This document shows, in pieces, positions 6,366-48,535 of a stretch of DNA of 64,000 nucleotides (within the stretch, counting starts at the first letter, position 1; the number at the start of each line of letters is the position of its first letter). Where the stretch lies: assembly GCA_025060695.1 (NCBI GenBank), contig JANXBH010000001.1, positions 1 to 64,000 of the forward strand, given 5' to 3'. Both the position numbers and the translations under genes were made by a program. This DNA is from Caldifarciminota bacterium. Its GTDB lineage: Bacteria; Hydrothermota; Hydrothermia; LBFQ01; DSFT01. The notes under the pieces are model-generated. The model saw only the letters and a list, made by a program, of their open reading frames with translations, did no database searches and was not told the origin of the DNA.

Positions 6366-8055
6366 ATGAAATGGCTATTAAGTTTGAGTGTGTTTTTGGG
6401 TCTGATTTCACAATTACATGCTCAAAATGCAAGGTATGGACCAATGTCTACAGAGTGGCTCCAGTCAGGCCATGACTACAAAAAAACCAGAAGAGCTCCA
6501 TTAAAGTGTACAAGTCCTGCAAATGTAAATAGAGTATGGACTAGTGAAGATAGTCCTGGTAATTGGTTTTCTTCAGGAGGAGCGGTGTATAATAATACAT
6601 TTGATTGGGACAATAATGGTTATGTGGAGGTTTCAGGTGGCGGTGAAGATTGCGATCAGTGGGATTGTGATGTTTTATGGAGACTACATCATGGAGGTGG
6701 TGGTATTATTTTTCAGACGGGTTATGGTGAAGAATACTATACAACTTATTGGGCAACAGGATATACTAACACGGGTGAGTCAAGAGTAGCTATGCATATA
6801 GATGATGATTTCAAGCTTCAAAGAGGTAATGGAAGTTTAATTTATAGTGTAGGAGTTGGCTGGAATGTATCGGATATAACTGTAGCGGATTTGAATAATG
6901 ATAATTGTGCTGAGGTTTATGTACAACATAGTAATAATTTCAGAGCCTTAAACTTATGTGCAAATAACTATTCCGCCATATGGAGTGTTCCTCAGGATGG
7001 TTGGACAATCGGTTCTGCAATAGGTTTTGTTCAAAATGTAGGAAGTTGGGATATAGTTCTTTCTAATGTAAATAACGGAAATGCAAGAATTATCATAAGA
7101 GACGCCCTAAGCGGTGCATGGAAGAATACTATAAACATGGGAACGGGTGCAAATTACATGACACTACCAACACTTGTTGATATAGACAATGATGGAAGAG
7201 ATGAGATAATAGTAGCTTACGCAGGTGAAACAGTCAATGGACCATATTTATCCATGCGAATTTTGTTTCCCTGTTTGCGACATAACTACTACTATAAATA
7301 TTTCTGCATATAAGTTTAATTCTACTGTATGGCAATATTCAACAAGTAACACAACAACAGTTCCTGCTGTATACGATGAATGGCAAGGATATTATTGTCC
7401 AACTTCTTATTACTCATATCTTTCTCATATAGCGGTTGGCAGAATACTTCCTAATGATCAATTAGGTATTGCTTATTTATTAAATGGTGAGCTTTACATC
7501 AGGTCAGCAAGTAACGGAACATTAATTGCAGGTCCAATAGGTAATTATTTTGGTTCTCCAAGTATAGCTGACATGAACGCTGATGGTATTGAGGGTGTTA
7601 TAGTTTCGGATGGTTGTGGTAATCCAAAAGAGCATTCGTATATAAACGGTTGGACTAACCCTGTATGGTCTGCATCTGGATGTGCGGATGAACCACCAAT
7701 CACATCAGATTTAATTATATCAAAGTGGTATATGTTTGGAAATCCTCCAACAGGTAAACTTATGATAGTAGAGGGGGATGCGAGTTGCTATACTAATGTA
7801 TGGCATTGTCAAAGTGCGGAAATGATAACACCTGTTGATGTTTCTGAAACTAATATACACCCAATTGTCAAGTATCAAAATGGAAATATAAAGGTTTTAA
7901 ACTATATAGGAAATGTTGAAATATATGATATAGCTGGAAGAAAGCTAATAAGTGATAGAGTTGAAAGTGAGAAGCGTTTTGAAATAAAGAAAGAAGGAGT
8001 TTATATTGTGAAGTTAGATAATAAACAATTTAAGGTTTTAGTAAGCGGGAGGTAA
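6366..8055 (+). pseudogene. Secreted Cys-rich FG-GAP/VCBS-like protein with T9SS type A-like C-terminal domain, frameshifted (cassette copy 1)
   Basis: SD AAGGAGG and signal peptide MKWLLSLSVFLGLISQLHAQ. Homology to 10507..12087 runs through ORF 6333..7313, then moves to ORF 7225..8055 in another frame within about 7240-7280. C-terminus NVEIYDIAGRKLIS...GVYIVKLDNKQFKVLVSGR. Confidence 0.7.
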
Positions 8056-8060
8056 AAAAC

Positions 8061-8612
8061 ATGTTAGTTCTAATTTTAAGCTCTATTGAAGATGAGATAG
8101 TTAATGCCTACAATAGTTATAAGTTAGTGAAATCTGAGATTGTAGAAATTCAATATAATAGATTTTATACAGATATACATAGAGGTTATAAGGTATTTCC
8201 AAAGCATGTAATTCAGGGTAGTGGTTCGGTTGTATACGATTTTGTAGCTAAAGTTGACCAATATGATATAAATGATACAAAGAGAGGGAATGTACAAGCA
8301 GTAGTAAATTACAATGAAGAAAGTAGAACTGCGAACTACAAGATAATCTATAACGGCAAGTCAGAAGAGGGTAGTATGCCATTTATGTATATTTCACCAT
8401 ATATTACTTTGAAACAATTGATTATGTCTGATATGGAGAGAACTATAAGTATAGAAGGTAGTAAAATTAAGTTAGAGTTTAAAATAAACGATAGAGAAAC
8501 TATAAGGTTTGTGCTAAATAAGAACGACTATACAATAAGATATGTTGCTCATTTAAAGGATGGACTTTTTAAAGCAAAGGTAAGGTTTGATAATACTCAG
8601 GTTATTCAATAG
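8061..8612 (+). CDS. Small secreted/periplasmic partner protein (possibly LolA-like fold), paralogous to 12099..12563
   Basis: Shared architecture with 12099..12563: N-terminal hydrophobic stretch, ISPY motif, and a C-terminal (D/N)QN/KNDYxIxYV strand. Confidence 0.55.
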   Translation: MLVLILSSIEDEIVNAYNSYKLVKSEIVEIQYNRFYTDIHRGYKVFPKHVIQGSGSVVYDFVAKVDQYDINDTKRGNVQAVVNYNEESRTANYKIIYNGKSEEGSMPFMYISPYITLKQLIMSDMERTISIEGSKIKLEFKINDRETIRFVLNKNDYTIRYVAHLKDGLFKAKVRFDNTQVIQ

Positions 8613-10377
8613 GGGCTATAGCCCCTTTTATATACTTAGATTTTTCAATAATTTCATTTAAAACTTTATATGGATGAAATTCTATTGCAAATGGAATAGA
8701 CTTAAATAGTTTTTTCGCTCTTTTTAGGTTGTTTGCTTCTATTGAGAGTAGTGCTTCATTTATATCAGTATGAACATTAGCATTTAAAACAATTTCTCCT
8801 TTATTTTCAAAAATTGGAATTTTTAGACGGTATTTTAATATCCTTAGTTCGTTTTTGCTTAATTTCCACGCAGGCAAGCTACATTTGTAAAAAAGTTCAA
8901 TTAATGCCAGATGTATTCCTTTTGTCTTTAAATAGTGTTTTTTATTCCTTAGTATAAAGTATGGTCTTTTCCTAAGAAAGAAAATTTTTATACTTTCTTT
9001 CTTTGCAAATTTAATAAAATCCTTTAATATCTTATATTTTTTTATCTTGCTAAATGATTTTGGTTGAAATAGCAGTAAAAGGTATAAAATTGTTCTAATT
9101 CCAAATCTACTTGCCAATTCAATAGCTCTATTTACCCTTCCACTAATCCAATACTTAATAACTAGATCCTTGGGAGACTTCTCTAAATGAGAAATATCAC
9201 CTGTTACTATTGCATAAAAGTGTTTATTAATATTATTACCCAAAACACTCTTTAGTTCTTCAAATATTTCCAAGTCCAATTTGGTATTTAAAAACCTATG
9301 GTAAACTATTAAGAAGGTATAGTAAAATTCTGCCACATTCGGAATAAGGTTCTCTCCCATCTCCTTGTATGCATTACTCATAGTTGTCATTGCCTTGCTT
9401 GTATCCGAGAGAAATAAATATGAGATGGCCTTTGCATAGTTAATTATAAAACTTTCTAATTTATTATTGGAAATATAATTACGTGAAATAACTTCTTGGT
9501 ATTTTCCCATGGCATATGCACTTAATATATTTATTAATGAGCCTTTCCTTGAAAGTCTATATGATTTTTTAAAATAACCTAAATTATAATAAAAAGCTTC
9601 AACAAACTTTAAAACTTTACGCTTTTGGCTTAAATTTAGCTTTCTATATATCTTTTTTTGCTTTTTTATTATGTTTAATGCTTTATTTGCGTCAATAAAA
9701 CTATAAGCGTTTGATAGAGAATTGTAAAGACGAGACTTTACTGTTAAAGATAGTAACTTATCAAATTTTTCATCATAGTAATTTATAATCTTTGAATATT
9801 CGCCCTTAAGAATAAAAATATCAAATTTAGAAGATAGTGCAAAATAATAGCTTAGCATGTAATTTCTTTCCTTTAGTTTATTTAGGTATTCTTCTATTTC
9901 ATATAGTAAATCGTCTGGTTTTTTTACTATTTGTGTAATTTCGTAATCAATTTTGAAAATCTCAAGTTCAAGTGGAATGTTCTTTAATTTTGCAATTACA
10001 TCGTATGGAACAATTATGTGATAATAATGTGCAAACTTTATTAAATTATCTATGTCATTTTTTTGTATAAGAAAATTTATAATGGTAAGGTCATTTTTGT
10101 CCGCATCTTTAAATACAAAGATGTTATACTTCTTCAGTGTTCTATATACAAATACTTTACTTAAATTAAGTTCAGTCGAAATTTCATTTATACTTTTAAA
10201 TGGATTTTTTTCAACATATTCAATCACTTTTAACTCTTTAGGTCTGATTTTTATAAAACCATAGTTTTTTATCTTATAAACTGTTCCTTTTGATATATTG
10301 TATGTTTGTAATATGTAGTCTATGTCTTTACCTTCTTTTATTGACTTGTATATTAAAAATCTTCTATAAAGATTCAT
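8602..10377 (-). CDS. Putative transcriptional regulator: N-terminal HTHs, long helical (TPR-like) region, possible divergent BTAD/SARP-like C-terminus
   Basis: HTH-like segments DYILQTYNISKGTVYKIKNYG and SINEISTELNLSKVFVYRTLKKY; C-terminal IKIFFLRKRPYFILRNKKHYLKTKGIHLALIELFYK...DINEALLSIEANNLKRAKKLFKS. Confidence 0.5.
   Translation of the reverse strand: MNLYRRFLIYKSIKEGKDIDYILQTYNISKGTVYKIKNYGFIKIRPKELKVIEYVEKNPFKSINEISTELNLSKVFVYRTLKKYNIFVFKDADKNDLTIINFLIQKNDIDNLIKFAHYYHIIVPYDVIAKLKNIPLELEIFKIDYEITQIVKKPDDLLYEIEEYLNKLKERNYMLSYYFALSSKFDIFILKGEYSKIINYYDEKFDKLLSLTVKSRLYNSLSNAYSFIDANKALNIIKKQKKIYRKLNLSQKRKVLKFVEAFYYNLGYFKKSYRLSRKGSLINILSAYAMGKYQEVISRNYISNNKLESFIINYAKAISYLFLSDTSKAMTTMSNAYKEMGENLIPNVAEFYYTFLIVYHRFLNTKLDLEIFEELKSVLGNNINKHFYAIVTGDISHLEKSPKDLVIKYWISGRVNRAIELASRFGIRTILYLLLLFQPKSFSKIKKYKILKDFIKFAKKESIKIFFLRKRPYFILRNKKHYLKTKGIHLALIELFYKCSLPAWKLSKNELRILKYRLKIPIFENKGEIVLNANVHTDINEALLSIEANNLKRAKKLFKSIPFAIEFHPYKVLNEIIEKSKYIKGAIAPIE
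8612..8630 (+). terminator. Intrinsic terminator GGGGCTATAGCCCCTTTT
   Basis: Perfect 7-bp palindromic arms and a T-run. Lies between convergent genes and overlaps the extreme 3' end region of the minus-strand gene. Confidence 0.75.
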
Positions 10378-13493: not shown

Positions 13494-14671
13494 TAGTTTT
13501 ATCTGGTATGCGTCCTACTGGAAAATTACATATTGGGCACCTTGTAGGGGTTCTTGAGAATTGGAAACATCTTCAAGATAAATATAGGTGCTACTTTTTT
13601 ATAGCGGATTTTCATGCTCTTACGGAAAATCCAAAAAATGCATTTGAAATAGTTCAAAATACTCTTGAAGTTGTAAAAGACTGGATTAGTGTAGGTATTG
13701 ACTATAAGAAAAGTGTTATATTTGTTCAATCTAAAGTAATGGAACATGCACAGCTACATCTTATTTTATCCATGCTTGTATCACTAAATAGACTATTTAG
13801 AAATCCAACATATAAAGAAAAAGTTGAGGAACTTGCAAGAAGAGGTATTGAGAGTAAACTTGTTTTGAATGTAGATGAAAATAGAATAGAGGAGAGTATT
13901 AATTCAACTTTAGATTTTATATTCAAAACTATAGAAATTGAGAATGACAAATCAAAATCACGCGAACAGATATATAGAAAGCTAAAGAGTGATATAATGG
14001 AGTTATTGAGGACCACTTTAGATAGTTCTATTATAATAGAGCAATTTTTACCAAATGCTGAAATAAGCTATGGATTTCTTGGTTATCCGGTTTTACAAAG
14101 TGCGGATATTTTAATATATAGGGCAAATTTCGTTCCAATAGGTCAAGACCAAATACCACACCTTGAACTTGCAAGAGAATTAGCACGAAGATTCAATAGT
14201 CTATATTCAGAAGTTTTCCCTATACCAGAACCTATTTTAACCGAATTTCCAAAAGTATTAGGCATAGATGGTAGAAAGATGAGCAAAAGCTACAACAATG
14301 CTATTTATATATCCGATAGTAGTAATACAGTAAAAGAAAAAATAAGAAAATACTTTACTGACCCTAATAAAATCAGAAAAAATGACCCTGGAAGACCTGA
14401 CATTTGTCCAATATTTTACTTGCATAGGGTATTTAATAAGGAAGAAAAGGAAGAAATATATATAGATTGCTCTAAGGGTAAATTGGGTTGTGTAGATTGT
14501 AAGATGAAATTATTTAAAAAATTAGATAGTTATTTAGAACCAATACGACAAAGAAGAGAGGAAGTTAGTAGCAAAGAGATTTTTGATATACTAAACGATG
14601 GCTTTATAGAAGCTCAGAAAAGGGCACAACAAACATTAGAATTAGCATATAAAGCTATGAAATTTCAATAA
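13490..14671 (+). CDS. trpS: Tryptophanyl-tRNA synthetase
   Basis: SGMRPTGKLHIGHLVG and GRKMSKSYNNAI motifs. Confidence 0.95.
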   Translation: MIVLSGMRPTGKLHIGHLVGVLENWKHLQDKYRCYFFIADFHALTENPKNAFEIVQNTLEVVKDWISVGIDYKKSVIFVQSKVMEHAQLHLILSMLVSLNRLFRNPTYKEKVEELARRGIESKLVLNVDENRIEESINSTLDFIFKTIEIENDKSKSREQIYRKLKSDIMELLRTTLDSSIIIEQFLPNAEISYGFLGYPVLQSADILIYRANFVPIGQDQIPHLELARELARRFNSLYSEVFPIPEPILTEFPKVLGIDGRKMSKSYNNAIYISDSSNTVKEKIRKYFTDPNKIRKNDPGRPDICPIFYLHRVFNKEEKEEIYIDCSKGKLGCVDCKMKLFKKLDSYLEPIRQRREEVSSKEIFDILNDGFIEAQKRAQQTLELAYKAMKFQ

Positions 14672-25083: not shown

Positions 25084-25084
25084 A

Positions 25085-25155
25085 GGCGACTCCCGGATTC
25101 GAACCGGGGTAAAGCGGTTTTGCAAACCGCCGCCTAGCCGCTCGGCCAAGTCGCC
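25085..25155 (-). tRNA. tRNA-Cys (anticodon GCA)
   Basis: Acceptor GGCGACT/AGTCGCC, D-arm GCC..GGC, anticodon arm GCGGT-TTGCAAA-ACCGC, T-arm CCGGTTCGAATCCGG; discriminator U at 25084 as expected for Cys; CCA not encoded. Confidence 0.95.
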
Positions 25156-25161
25156 AAGTTT

Positions 25162-26211
25162 TCAAATTTTAAAGTCCAAAAGAAATTTTACTTTTTCTTC
25201 TATTAAATGAGAAAAAGTTGGGGTATTTTCAAGAGTTTTACTTGCATTTTTTGAAAGTTTTTTTAAAAGTGCTTCATCCTTAGATAAACTATATACCGAG
25301 TTTACAAACTCATCTATATCAAATTTTCTTACTAAAATTCCGTTTTCTAAGTGTTTAATCTTTGTCCATATTGAAATATCAAATGCAATTACAGGTTTTG
25401 AATAGAATAAGGCTTCAATTGTTGGAAGTGTCATATTTCCATAATGAACAGGATTTATCAAAAAATCAATAGATGAATAAAACTTATAGTTTTGAAAATA
25501 CGGAAGATTACTTATTATAGTAATGTTCTTATATTTTCCTTGGAGTTTATAAAGTTTTTTATTTTCACCCTTCAAAAGCACAATAAGATGAATGTTTTTG
25601 TATTTTAGTATCTTTTCAAAAATTTCTAAAATAATTTTCTCACCTTTATATTTAGAGATTGCACCACAATAGCCAACATTTATACAACCCTCTTTTCTAT
25701 ATACTGGTTCAATCTTTAGAAAATCTGGCTTTGGATGTTCGTACAATTTTATTTTATATGAAGGTATTCCAAGAAGCATAGCAAATAGACTTCCATTAGT
25801 CCCATCTTCCCAAATAATATAAAAATTAGCTTGTTTTTTAAAACTATTTAAAAGTTGCTTATATCTTATTTTGATATAAAAACTATTTATATTCCACACT
25901 AAAGGATTTAAGACTATACCAAAATGCTCGTTAATATATGGAATGTTATGTTCTCTTGAAATTTCCAACGCAATATTATGAAACTGATGAGAAAATGCAA
26001 TAATTAAATCGTATTTTGAAGCTTTAAAGTCTCTAAAGTTTATAAAATTAATATTTTCATAAGGTTTATATTTACTGCTTCCACAAAAAACCCAATCTAC
26101 TATAGTATTTTTATACTTTCTAAGTTCGTTTAGCAAATAGTAATTCAAAGGTGCTCCTACCACATTTTCATTCCAGTCATTTTCCCAAGGACTAAGAATT
26201 AATATTTTCAA
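25162..26211 (-). CDS. Glycosyltransferase family 4-like protein
   Basis: GYCGAISKYKGEKIILEIFEKI and MTLPTIEALFYSKPVIAFDISIWTKIKHLENGILV. Confidence 0.75.
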   Translation of the reverse strand: MKILILSPWENDWNENVVGAPLNYYLLNELRKYKNTIVDWVFCGSSKYKPYENINFINFRDFKASKYDLIIAFSHQFHNIALEISREHNIPYINEHFGIVLNPLVWNINSFYIKIRYKQLLNSFKKQANFYIIWEDGTNGSLFAMLLGIPSYKIKLYEHPKPDFLKIEPVYRKEGCINVGYCGAISKYKGEKIILEIFEKILKYKNIHLIVLLKGENKKLYKLQGKYKNITIISNLPYFQNYKFYSSIDFLINPVHYGNMTLPTIEALFYSKPVIAFDISIWTKIKHLENGILVRKFDIDEFVNSVYSLSKDEALLKKLSKNASKTLENTPTFSHLIEEKVKFLLDFKI

Positions 26212-33858: not shown

Positions 33859-33881
33859 AGCTTTAAAATTTTAATGCTAAT

Positions 33882-44361: not shown

Positions 44362-45114
44362 ATGGCAGGACATAGTAAATGGGCACAAATTAAGCATAAA
44401 AAAGCTATAAAAGATGCAAGAAAGGGAAAATTATTTTCTAAAATCGTAAGAGAAATTACAGTTGCGGTAAAAGTTGGAGGTCCTGACCCTGAAGGAAATC
44501 CAAGACTAAGATTAGCACTTGAAAAAGCAAAAGAAGTAAATTTACCAAAAGATAACATTGAGAGAGCAATAAAAAAAGCTATAGGAGGCGATGAAGGCAA
44601 TAATTATGAAGAGGTAATATATGAAGGTTATGGACCTGAGGGTGTTGCTTTTGTAGTAAAGACACTTACTGACAATAAAAATAGAACTGTAAATGAGATA
44701 AGATATATATTTTCTAAGTATGGAGGTAGTTTAGCAACTAGTGGTTCAGTCCTTTGGCAGTTTTCTGAAAAAGGAACAATTTACATATTAAAGAATAAAG
44801 TAAGAGAAGAGGAAGTTTTTGAATTAGCACTTTCTTTAAACATAGAAGATATAAAGGAAGACGAAGATAGCTATGTAGTATATACATTGCCTAAGGACTT
44901 TCATAGTGTAAAAGAAAAACTACAGGAAAGTGGTATAGAAATTGAAAGTGCAACAATTACTCTAATACCGCAAAATACTATAAAGGTTAGTTCAGATAAA
45001 GCTCAAAAAGTGCTAAAGTTATATGAAGCACTTGAAGAACACGATGATGTTCAGGAAGTATATGCAAACTTTGATATTGAAAAGGAAGTATTAGAAGCAT
45101 TTACGAGCGAATAA
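44362..45114 (+). CDS. YebC/PmpR-family protein
   Basis: MAGHSKWAQIKHKKAIKDARKGKLFSKIVREI; ALEEHDDVQEVYANFDI. Confidence 0.97.
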   Translation: MAGHSKWAQIKHKKAIKDARKGKLFSKIVREITVAVKVGGPDPEGNPRLRLALEKAKEVNLPKDNIERAIKKAIGGDEGNNYEEVIYEGYGPEGVAFVVKTLTDNKNRTVNEIRYIFSKYGGSLATSGSVLWQFSEKGTIYILKNKVREEEVFELALSLNIEDIKEDEDSYVVYTLPKDFHSVKEKLQESGIEIESATITLIPQNTIKVSSDKAQKVLKLYEALEEHDDVQEVYANFDIEKEVLEAFTSE

Positions 45115-45570
45115 AAATAAGTCTTTATCTTTAAAGTTACACTTGTTTATATTAAAGTTTAAGCTGCTATATCCTCTTGATATTATTTCAAGCAAAGGGA
45201 TTACAAAAAATTTCCTACTATATAAATCATAGTGTGGAATTTCTAAGTTATTACTTTTGATTGTGAGTTCATTAAAAAGCAAAATGTCTATGTCTATAAC
45301 TCTTGGTGAATTTTTAAATAGCCTTTTTCTGTTCATTAGGTTTTCAACCTTTTGAATATTCTCCAAAAGTAAAAATGGACTTAAGTTAGTTACTATAAGC
45401 AAAGTCATATTTAAGAATGTATTTTGTTTTTCATACCCATATGGATAGCTTTCATATATACTTGATATTTCAAGTATCTTTGAAAATTCAGATATTTTCT
45501 TTATTGCATATTTTAAGTTTCTTTCTCTAACGAATAAGTTAGTTCCAAGTGAAAGATAAACGTAGTTCAT
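45091..45570 (-). CDS. folK: 2-amino-4-hydroxy-6-hydroxymethyldihydropteridine pyrophosphokinase
   Basis: VYLSLGTNLFVRERNLKYAI, IDIDILLF, IPHYDLYSRKFFVIPLLEI. Confidence 0.9.
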   Translation of the reverse strand: MNYVYLSLGTNLFVRERNLKYAIKKISEFSKILEISSIYESYPYGYEKQNTFLNMTLLIVTNLSPFLLLENIQKVENLMNRKRLFKNSPRVIDIDILLFNELTIKSNNLEIPHYDLYSRKFFVIPLLEIISRGYSSLNFNINKCNFKDKDLFLFARKCF

Positions 45571-46445
45571 TTTAAATACTTAAGCAGGATGAATATGAAA
45601 AATGGCACACCTATAAGCGAAGTAATAATTCCAACAGGAATTGAAAGTTTAGAAAACTTTAAAAATATAACGGAAACTATAAGAAGAAATATAGAAAGGT
45701 TTATAGAACTTACTAATATCCAAAAGTAATTGTCTTTATGTATAATTCTTGAAATGTGTGGGACTATAAGACCTAAAAAACCGATAATACCTGAAAAGTA
45801 AACACTTATTGAAGTAAGAATAAATGCAATAGATAGGAAAATTTTCTTGTATTTTTTTATATTTAATCCAAGGCTAAGTGCTTCCTCATCCGAAAGCGAT
45901 AAAATTAAAAGCTTCTTTCTTTGAATTATGGTATATAATATTGAAACTAAGACAACTACAAAGCAAAAGTAAAGAAATATTGCATCTTGCTTCGTTAAAA
46001 CTCTATCTAAATTACCCCATAGTATAAATATCGTTTTAAATATATCTTGTTTTGAAATTGCCATAATCAAATTTATCAAACTGGAACAAATAAGATTTAT
46101 TGATATTCCTATTAAAATGAACTTTAGATTACTTCCATAGTTTGATATGATTACTAAAAAACACAATATTACTAAAGATAGCATTATAACATTTGTGAAG
46201 AAGATATTTAGATTAAAGACTATAGAAATTACAAAGCCTATACCTGCACAGGAAGAAATTCCAAGAATATATGGCTCTACAAGTGGATTTTTTAAAATTA
46301 CTTGTAGTATAAGACCGGCAATAGAAAGTGAACTTCCTACTATGAAAATAAGCATAAGCTTGTGTATAGTAAGTTCAATTAAAGAAATATCGCTGCCAAG
46401 AATATAAACTACAATTGAAAGAATAGATAAAATAAGAAATATCAA
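45567..46445 (-). CDS. FecCD-family ABC transporter permease
   Basis: GSSLSIAGLILQVILKNPLVEPYILGISSCAGIG, FLGLIVPHISRII; TTG start. Confidence 0.85.
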   Translation of the reverse strand: MIFLILSILSIVVYILGSDISLIELTIHKLMLIFIVGSSLSIAGLILQVILKNPLVEPYILGISSCAGIGFVISIVFNLNIFFTNVIMLSLVILCFLVIISNYGSNLKFILIGISINLICSSLINLIMAISKQDIFKTIFILWGNLDRVLTKQDAIFLYFCFVVVLVSILYTIIQRKKLLILSLSDEEALSLGLNIKKYKKIFLSIAFILTSISVYFSGIIGFLGLIVPHISRIIHKDNYFWILVSSINLSIFLLIVSVIFLKFSKLSIPVGIITSLIGVPFFIFILLKYLK

Positions 46446-46459
46446 CTTTAAAATTTTAT
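46446..46459. promoter_or_regulatory. Shared palindromic element CTTTAAAATTTTAT between divergent start codons 14 bp apart
   Basis: TAAAAT at -11..-6 of start 46460 (+) and -13..-8 of start 46445 (-). Confidence 0.55.
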
Positions 46460-48535
46460 ATGCTTAAGATTTTAGAGCCCAAAAGTATAGCAGTTATTGG
46501 AGCATCAAGAGATGAAAATAGTGTAGGTTTTGGAATTTTAAGAAATATCATATTTGGTGGCTATAAAGGTGTAGTTTATCCTGTAAATCCAAGGGCAAAG
46601 TCCATACTTGGTATAAAATCATATAGTAGTGTTCTTGATATAGAAGATGAAGTTGATATAGGTATAGTAGTTACGCCTTATTATATAGTAGAGGACATTT
46701 TAACTGAGTGCGGTAAAAAGGGCATTCCATATTGCATTATCATAAGTTCGGGATTTAAGGAAGTAGGTGAGGAAGGATTGGAAAGAGAAATTAGAATTTT
46801 AGAAATAGCAAGGAGGTATAATATAAGAATATTGGGACCTAATTGTTTTGGTATAATGAATACCGATAGCAAGATTTCACTAAATGCAACATTCTCAAAG
46901 CAGATATTTAAAGATGGAAACATTGCATTTATAAGTCAAAGTGGTGCTCTTGCTGCAGGTGTTCTTGATTATGCAAAGGACAAAAACATAGGCTTTAGTA
47001 AAGTAATAACTCTCGGTAATAAAGCTGATTTAGATGAAGTAGATTTCTTATTGTATTTAAAGGATGACCCATTGACTAAGGTTATATTGCTATACTTAGA
47101 AGACATCTCAAGGGGAAGGGAGTTTCTTGAAGTAGCAAGGGAAATTACTGAAAATTATAAGCCCATACTTGCTATAAAATCTGGTAGAACTGAAGAGGGT
47201 AAAAGGGCTGTTAGTTCTCATACAGGTTCACTTACAAGTTCAGACGAACTATACGAAGCTGTTTTTAAACAAAGTGGTGTTTTAAGGGTAGAGAGTGTTG
47301 AAGAATTATTTAACTATGCTACTGCTTTTTCAAATTTAAACATTCCAAAGAGCAATAGAATTGTAATTTTAACTAATGCGGGAGGACCTGGTATTTTAGC
47401 AGTAGATAGTGCAATTAGAAATAAACTAAGTATACCTGAGACATCAGAAAAAACAAAAGAAGAATTAAGGAAAATACTACCAAACTATGCATCTTTAAAA
47501 AATCCTATTGATACAACTGGAGGCATAAGTGTAGATGAATATATTAAAGTGCTAAATATATTAGATAAAGATGATAGTTTTGATGGTATTATAGCGATTT
47601 TTGTTAGGGCATTTACTATGGACATAAATGAATTTTGTGATAAGGTCTTAAGTATTTATAAAGATATTAAAAAGCCAATAATTATTACTCTTATGGGTAT
47701 TACAGAAATTGAACAGGGTTTAAGAAAGCTTCAGGAAAATTCAATAGTAGTTTATACATTTCCTGAGGATGCAGTTAGAAGCTTTAAGGAACTGTATGAA
47801 TATAAAACTTGGCTTGAAAGACCAAGAACAAAAATTAGGAAGTTTGATGTAAATAAGGAAAAGGCAAGAAACTTAATAATAAATGCCAAAAGAGGTAAAG
47901 AGGGTTTTATAATGGAAGATAAGGCTTTTGAAGCGTTAAGAATTTATGGATTTAATGTAGTGAATTTTGGTGTTGCGAATAGTATAAATCAAGCTAATTC
48001 AATTGCAAGGGAAATAGGATTTCCAGTTGTATTAAAAGTGTTATCAAGCGAGATAGTCCATAAATTTGATATAGGAGGTATTAAACTTAATATAAGGAAC
48101 GAAAAAGAGTTAGAAATTGCGTTTAGTGAAATGTTAGAAAAATTTAATGACAAAATAGATGGGATTATAGTGCAAAAAATGATAAGTAAAGGATATGAAG
48201 TAATAGTTGGTGCAAAGAGAGATAAAAAATTTGGACCTATTGTCCTTTTTGGTCTTGGTGGTATATATGTGGAGGTATTTAAGGATATTTCATTTAGGCT
48301 TGCTCCAATTAGAGAATATAGTGCACATAGGATGATTCAGGAAACAAAGGCGTACGAACTACTAAAAGGCGTAAGAGGTCAAAAGCCTGCAAATATAGAT
48401 AGCTTAGTTGAAACTATAGAAAGACTATCTCAAATGATAGTTGAAATTGAAGAAATAGACGAGATAGATATTAACCCTGTTATCGTAAACGAAGAAGGTG
48501 CATTTATTGTAGATACGAGAATAAGAATTAGGTAA
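46460..48535 (+). CDS. Acetate--CoA ligase (ADP-forming), fused alpha-beta
   Basis: PKSIAVIGASRDENSVGFGILRN, GPNCFGIMN, SQSGALAAGVLDYA, ATP-grasp-like C-terminal half, LFGLGGIYVEVFKDISFRLAP. Confidence 0.92.
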   Translation: MLKILEPKSIAVIGASRDENSVGFGILRNIIFGGYKGVVYPVNPRAKSILGIKSYSSVLDIEDEVDIGIVVTPYYIVEDILTECGKKGIPYCIIISSGFKEVGEEGLEREIRILEIARRYNIRILGPNCFGIMNTDSKISLNATFSKQIFKDGNIAFISQSGALAAGVLDYAKDKNIGFSKVITLGNKADLDEVDFLLYLKDDPLTKVILLYLEDISRGREFLEVAREITENYKPILAIKSGRTEEGKRAVSSHTGSLTSSDELYEAVFKQSGVLRVESVEELFNYATAFSNLNIPKSNRIVILTNAGGPGILAVDSAIRNKLSIPETSEKTKEELRKILPNYASLKNPIDTTGGISVDEYIKVLNILDKDDSFDGIIAIFVRAFTMDINEFCDKVLSIYKDIKKPIIITLMGITEIEQGLRKLQENSIVVYTFPEDAVRSFKELYEYKTWLERPRTKIRKFDVNKEKARNLIINAKRGKEGFIMEDKAFEALRIYGFNVVNFGVANSINQANSIAREIGFPVVLKVLSSEIVHKFDIGGIKLNIRNEKELEIAFSEMLEKFNDKIDGIIVQKMISKGYEVIVGAKRDKKFGPIVLFGLGGIYVEVFKDISFRLAPIREYSAHRMIQETKAYELLKGVRGQKPANIDSLVETIERLSQMIVEIEEIDEIDINPVIVNEEGAFIVDTRIRIR

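Follow-up and report, generated by a model that had tools for sequence, protein, structure and literature searches.

Leaderless genes with a -10-type signal close to the start codon are known in many bacteria (PMC3160421; PMC12340547). In such genes, as Zheng et al. (2011, PMC3160421) describe them, the start codon is preceded by a TA-like -10 signal at a distance of about 10-12 bp. For the Deinococcus-Thermus group, Zhong et al. (2025, PMC12340547) give an average of approximately 30% of ORFs with an adjoining -10 motif. Extended -10 promoters of the TGn-TATAAT type are mentioned in PMC3160421 as working without a -35 element, for example in Lactococcus. A further described arrangement is the bidirectional promoter of E. 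coli, in which one -10 is shared and binding in the two directions is mutually exclusive (PMC12825309). In these promoters, 18, 10 and 23 bp are the most frequent distances between the opposing start sites (PMC12825309). No specific account of leaderless promoters in candidate phyla came up in a search of the literature.

The locus considered here lies in a window of 64,000 nucleotides from a Caldifarciminota bacterium, the whole stretch of DNA that was analysed. We put at about 0.62 the probability that a single extended -10 copy at this locus is shared, in the full sense, by a ligase gene on one side and a permease-folK unit on the other.

Two divergent genes around a 14-bp spacer

The spacer (46446-46459; CTTTAAAATTTTAT) is the entire 14-base intergenic region between a FecCD ABC-permease gene on the minus strand (45567..46445, TTG start) and a gene for an NDP-forming acyl-CoA (acetate-CoA) ligase on the plus strand (46460..48535, ATG start, predicted to be leaderless). 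An earlier note on this DNA had placed TTG 46445 (-) and ATG 46460 (+) 14 bp apart, and both the coordinates and the sequence are exact. It had also named the two products, and these identities are backed by Pfam, which assigns FecCD to the minus gene (PF01032, E 4.5e-56) and the ligase domains PF13380, PF13607 and PF13549 to the plus gene. Pfam further identifies an HPPK (folK) gene (45091..45570, -), which overlaps the 3' end of the permease gene and forms one minus transcription unit with it. The permease gene had been said to have no other canonical start before an in-frame stop. The minus frame upstream of TTG 46445, which reads TAA GCA TAT AAA ATT TTA AAG, agrees with this, there being no ATG, GTG or TTG between the stop and that TTG. 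The spacer contains no Shine-Dalgarno site.

TAAAAT is present on both strands, just as had been described. The plus hexamer (46449..46454, at -11..-6), whose last base lies 6 nt before the A of the ligase ATG, fits the TAnnnT-type -10 of leaderless genes, in which the first T is expected at about 12 bp from the start codon. The minus hexamer (46458-46453, at -13..-8) is 8 nt from the permease TTG. The two overlap within TAAAATTTTA (46449-46458), as in a shared symmetric -10. One part of the original description has to be trimmed, namely that the spacer is a 14-bp palindrome. The inner 10 bp are perfectly palindromic, but the outer bases are not, and the symmetry does not extend to all 14 bp.

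A recurrent extended -10 motif

On the plus strand the spacer holds an extended -10 element, CTTTAAAATTT (46446..46456), that is an exact match to a genome-wide 11-mer; the 12-mer ACTTTAAAATTT begins at 46445. A comparison of the sequences upstream of all window ORFs finds the same string recurring. There are 16 exact copies in the window, where a first-order Markov model predicts about 1. The 1.497-Mb assembly contains 360, versus 91 for a reversed control. With these counts, the earlier note's treatment of the element as special has to be given up. It is instead the ordinary promoter of this organism.

Could the element be a product of chance in an AT-rich spacer? The genome is certainly AT-rich (29.6% GC, as measured in the window). 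However, CTTTAAAATTT is approximately 16-fold over the first-order Markov expectation in the window and 4-fold over the reversed control genome-wide, it is start-codon-proximal, and the two members of the family with 53% GC carry this motif as well. The probability of a chance origin is therefore negligible. More precisely, chance is refuted for the plus side and possible for the minus-side match alone.

Gene-level statistics were obtained from 424 kb (28% of the fragmented assembly) with simple longest-ORF calls. A 12-column matrix was trained on 97 first genes with ATG starts, the target pair being kept out. The matrix consensus is (A/G)CTTTAAAATTT. An estimated 88% of the training first genes carry the motif, and in these 97 genes the last base of the hexamer is almost always 7-11 nt from the ATG. 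Across 123 gene-linked sites, conservation is 0.87 for C at -15, 0.81 for T at -14, 0.94 for T at -13 and 0.91-0.99 per base for TAAAAT at -12..-7 (T at -12 reaches 99%), followed by T at -6/-5. The hexamer-to-ATG spacing of the 123 motif-led genes has two peaks, at 7-8 and 10 nt, which suggests leaders of 0-1 and 3 nt. The usual step from a -10 hexamer to the start site is 7 nt, and hexamer-ATG distances of 7-11 nt therefore correspond to leaders of 0-4 nt. TTG starts are found at 21 of the 123 genes with the same spacing, a count that the longest-ORF calls may inflate; a TTG start is in itself no objection to a promoter of this kind. Scored with this matrix, the plus site of the target reaches 17.0 bits and is near-perfect. 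Its 6-nt spacing lies at the short edge of the distribution (6 nt at 3 of the 123 sites, 5 nt at one).

Placement at transcription units without a -35 element

The motif occupies the leaderless position before 72 of 103 divergent genes and 32 of 222 operon-internal genes, defined as same-strand genes with gaps of <=20 nt (p 6.5e-23; 424 kb), although the divergent-gene count is not independent of a matrix trained on first genes. Independent checks are provided by the exact-string comparison with the reversed control, by start-like codons inside genes and by tRNA genes. Only 0.8% of in-frame start-like control codons inside genes have a site of at least 6 bits in position, compared to 70% of the divergent genes. 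Shine-Dalgarno-like sites have the opposite distribution, being found at 2 of the 103 divergent and 54 of the 222 operon-internal genes (p 3e-8; 424 kb), and none of these genes has both a motif and a Shine-Dalgarno site. The motif stands before all 11 tRNA units in the 424 kb, including one in the window (25084-25174), and its hexamer ends 11-16 nt short of the mature tRNA. Just two tRNAs lack it, each the second member of a tandem pair. Because the motif precedes all of the tRNA units, the signal is transcriptional and not translational. A hexamer 11-16 nt upstream also leaves these units with very short 5' leaders for RNase P.

These observations bear on the suggestion that the element, in place of a core promoter, could be a palindrome bound by a regulator or a signal for translation. 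It is palindromic and it sits where a ribosome-binding site would be. Nevertheless, the number of copies (some 360), the presence before tRNA units and functionally unrelated genes, the exclusion of Shine-Dalgarno sites and the conservation of TAnAAT at the right distance make this very improbable.

No -35 element accompanies the motif. Among the 123 gene-linked sites, no column between -60 and -17 rises above about 0.13 bit. TTGACA-like hexamers (<=2 mismatches) at 15-19 bp are found at 44 of the 123 sites, and at 38, 24 and 30 for control spacings, which is no excess. Genome-wide, the canonical TTGACA-N16-18-TATAAT has one match and its control also has one. The arrangement of a canonical sigma-70 promoter, with a TTGACA hexamer 16-18 bp upstream of the -10, was not found, and neither was the TG at -15/-14 of a TGn extended -10, the consensus bases there being C and T. 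The lack of a -35 column signal or a TTGACA excess therefore indicates a -10-only promoter with a CTT extension. Combined with the placement at first genes and tRNAs and the exclusion of Shine-Dalgarno sites, this in turn indicates a -10-only promoter that makes leaderless mRNAs. Judged from sequence, CTTTAAAATTT is the organism's general promoter, standing before most transcription units, and the ligase side of the locus is very probably a leaderless promoter of this -10-only kind. The earlier note had proposed this for both genes, and for the plus gene the position, the missing -35, the tRNA units and the Shine-Dalgarno exclusion all speak strongly for it.

Can one element serve both genes?

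In the proposed mechanism the spacer would be one copy of the lineage's housekeeping promoter, R-C-T-T-TAAAAT-T-T, which the primary sigma factor (presumably sigma-A) would read without a -35. Polymerase would bind CTTTAAAATTT, melt it and start at approximately A46460 to make an mRNA beginning with AUG. Bound in reverse, it would start at approximately G46446/T46445 and make a leaderless, or almost leaderless, permease-folK mRNA initiated at UUG. The core TAAAATTTTA equals its own reverse complement, which makes binding both ways conceivable, and the two orientations of polymerase would be mutually exclusive. We infer that the minus face is actually used and that translation from the UUG is leaderless. 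One aspect that does not fit easily is the geometry. The predicted start sites are about 15 bp apart, and this distance, being outside the 10, 18 or 23 bp preferred in E. coli, would count against sharing.

The minus side is also where the earlier claim of a bidirectional promoter is upheld only in part. The overlapping hexamers stand, and the distance of 8 nt from the permease TTG fits. However, the minus 12-mer CATATAAAATTT (46451-46462) scores 6.0 bits, compared to a median of 13.8 for divergent genes, it is without CTT at -15..-13, and another site upstream scores 6.3 bits. In addition, for 56 of 201 strong motifs (28%) the opposite strand reaches 5.9 bits or more at the same offset, simply as an outcome of the motif's own near-symmetry. 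By its score, the minus site is the kind of by-product that is seen with 28% of strong copies. Use in both directions is likely, although less well supported than the plus side.

Perhaps, then, the spacer is the promoter of the ligase gene only and permease-folK is transcribed from its own -10. The candidate is a minus-strand -10-like site, GCTCTAAAATCT (46467..46478, hexamer 46469-46474), located within the ligase coding region 16 bp further upstream of the palindromic minus site, with a leader of about 17 nt. Its 6.3 bits are slightly more than the score of the palindromic site, and symmetry alone produces a weak opposite face in 28% of strong plus motifs. Nevertheless, this explanation is unlikely. 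Few motif-led genes of this genome place the hexamer at a distance of over 13 nt from the start codon, and the leader of about 17 nt would be without a Shine-Dalgarno sequence. Furthermore, GCTCTAAAATCT overlaps conserved N-terminal codons of the ligase (I-L-E-P) and may be coincidental.

The reading in which one copy is shared can be set beside other divergent pairs in the 424 kb. The motif is present on both sides in 31 of 47 pairs. Two back-to-back copies within about 29-90 bp account for 28 of the 31, and in the other three, target included, a single copy is shared via TAAAATTTTA with the matches offset by 6 bp. One of these is formed by a P-type ATPase gene (TTG 33858, -) and an ORF (ATG 33882, +), identified with Pfam, around the spacer 33859..33881 (AGCTTTAAAATTTTAATGCTAAT), which scores 11.4 bits on the minus and 17.9 bits on the plus strand at the same offset of -6. 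The other, also identified with Pfam, is an MscS/SDR pair on contig C3 (14467/14489, spacer 14468-14488) in which both genes start with ATG. Both of these pairs score 11-18 bits on each side, which speaks for sharing, and their minus sides are stronger than that of the target. Of the three spacers, that of the target is the shortest, and its two scores are the most unequal (17.0 and 6.0 bits).

The locus and the motif in relatives

The divergent ligase/permease pairing is absent from a sister species of the same genus (G001). Its ligase ortholog (71% identity) has a different neighbour gene, and its permease ortholog (66% identity) is operon-internal, behind a gene of 421 aa (L130:228-1490) for which there was no Pfam match. 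The gene divergent to the G001 ligase (TolC-like; L047 ~7900-9036) has an apparent N-terminal in-frame stop, possibly an assembly error. The G001 permease starts six codons further up, and by eye these codons align with bases of the target spacer (residues MQFVFKL in G001 and AYKILKL in the target). Compared with the arrangement in G001, therefore, both the pairing and the new start of the permease are recent. A rearrangement probably brought the permease to the ligase promoter, whose back face it then took over.

The same history could be read differently, with the spacer driving the ligase alone and the permease either silent or weakly transcribed by antisense read-through from minus genes beyond 48528. 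A gene that is operon-internal in G001 may have lost its own promoter in the recent rearrangement, and between 48528 and 46446 no good minus-strand terminator was found, only one weak candidate (47826-47808), the number expected by chance. This reading is nevertheless improbable. The permease has an intact ORF that matches FecCD strongly, its overlap with folK suggests an expressed unit, and any read-through would have 2 kb to cover against the direction of the ligase gene.

Enrichment of the exact motif over the reversed control is seen only within the family: 360/91 in the target genome (G000), 502/218 in G001, 76/34 in G002 and 72/28 in G003. De novo motif searches find CttTAAAATTt in G002, and the match in G003 is weaker. 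With 53% GC in both genomes, base composition is no explanation for the motif. In a sister family of the same order (G005 and G008; 55-59% GC), the de novo signal is C..TA.AAT at the same distance from the ATG. Leaderless promoters with an adjacent -10 thus appear in these four relatives with 53-59% GC too; they keep the C at -15, the rest of the motif being looser. The long CTTTAAAATTT form is strongest in the target genus, with a weaker form across the order. In small de novo samples from G012 and G022 (same class) and G050 (same phylum), no leaderless -10 signal was found, a weak negative at this sample size.

The primary sigma factor of the target (contig C44, 20301-21029) keeps the equivalents of E. 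coli Q437, H455 and E458, numbered by the range over which it aligns with the E. coli chain. At position 440, where E. coli has T, the target has I and G001 has M, an unusual change; the 28 further relatives inspected all have T. Position 449 is also changed from T to I in the target. T440I in E. coli is reported to favour C at -12 (PMC8321222). As the sole cause of the CTT extension T440I is insufficient: G002 and G003 have the CTT motif yet retain T440, and the preference of E. coli T440I for C at -12 (PMC8321222) is at odds with the 99% T found here. The change at position 440 is best regarded as a lead, not an explanation.

Comparison with known systems

A broader scenario is tentative and rather doubtful. 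The whole order might have given up -35-dependent, leadered initiation at first genes. Within it, one genus, in which T440 was altered to I or M, might have hardened its promoters into a CTT-extended -10 of 12 bp, which would let divergent leaderless genes share symmetric elements across spacers down to 14 bp. The shared reading of the target locus has consequences of its own. If it is right, one sequence of 10-12 bp, making up the whole intergenic region, would serve two start codons 14 bp apart, near the smallest possible divergent switch. On a wider scale, almost all first genes and tRNAs of an uncultured order would depend on one -10-type signal, and its promoters, transcription units and gene starts would be readable from sequence alone. 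The system would also be a natural setting in which to ask how residue 440 of sigma region 2.4 and the bases at -15..-13 determine promoter choice.

Like the leaderless systems described previously (PMC3160421; PMC12340547), this one has a TAnnnT/TAtAAT-like -10 at the start codon, needs no -35, is predicted to make leaderless mRNA and leaves Shine-Dalgarno sites to operon-distal genes. Unlike them, it has a 12-bp motif, RCTTTAAAATTT, with C at -15, TT at -14/-13 in place of the TG of extended -10 promoters, and T at -6/-5. The motif is found at approximately 70-88% of first genes, whereas the Deinococcus-Thermus figure is approximately 30% of ORFs, although the denominators differ. The TGn extended -10, as it is noted in PMC3160421, is similar in having conserved bases at -15/-14 and no -35, but here CT(T) and not TG(n) precedes the hexamer. 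Like the symmetric bidirectional promoters of Warman et al. (2021), as they are presented in PMC12825309, the locus would use one pseudo-symmetric -10 for two opposite starts. It would differ from that account in that the starts are about 15 bp apart and not 10, 18 or 23, and in that both products are predicted from sequence to be leaderless, with the promoter filling the intergenic region. In other words, -10-adjacent leaderless promoters and symmetric bidirectional promoters are both known, and it is their combination, together with the unusual consensus, that is new here.
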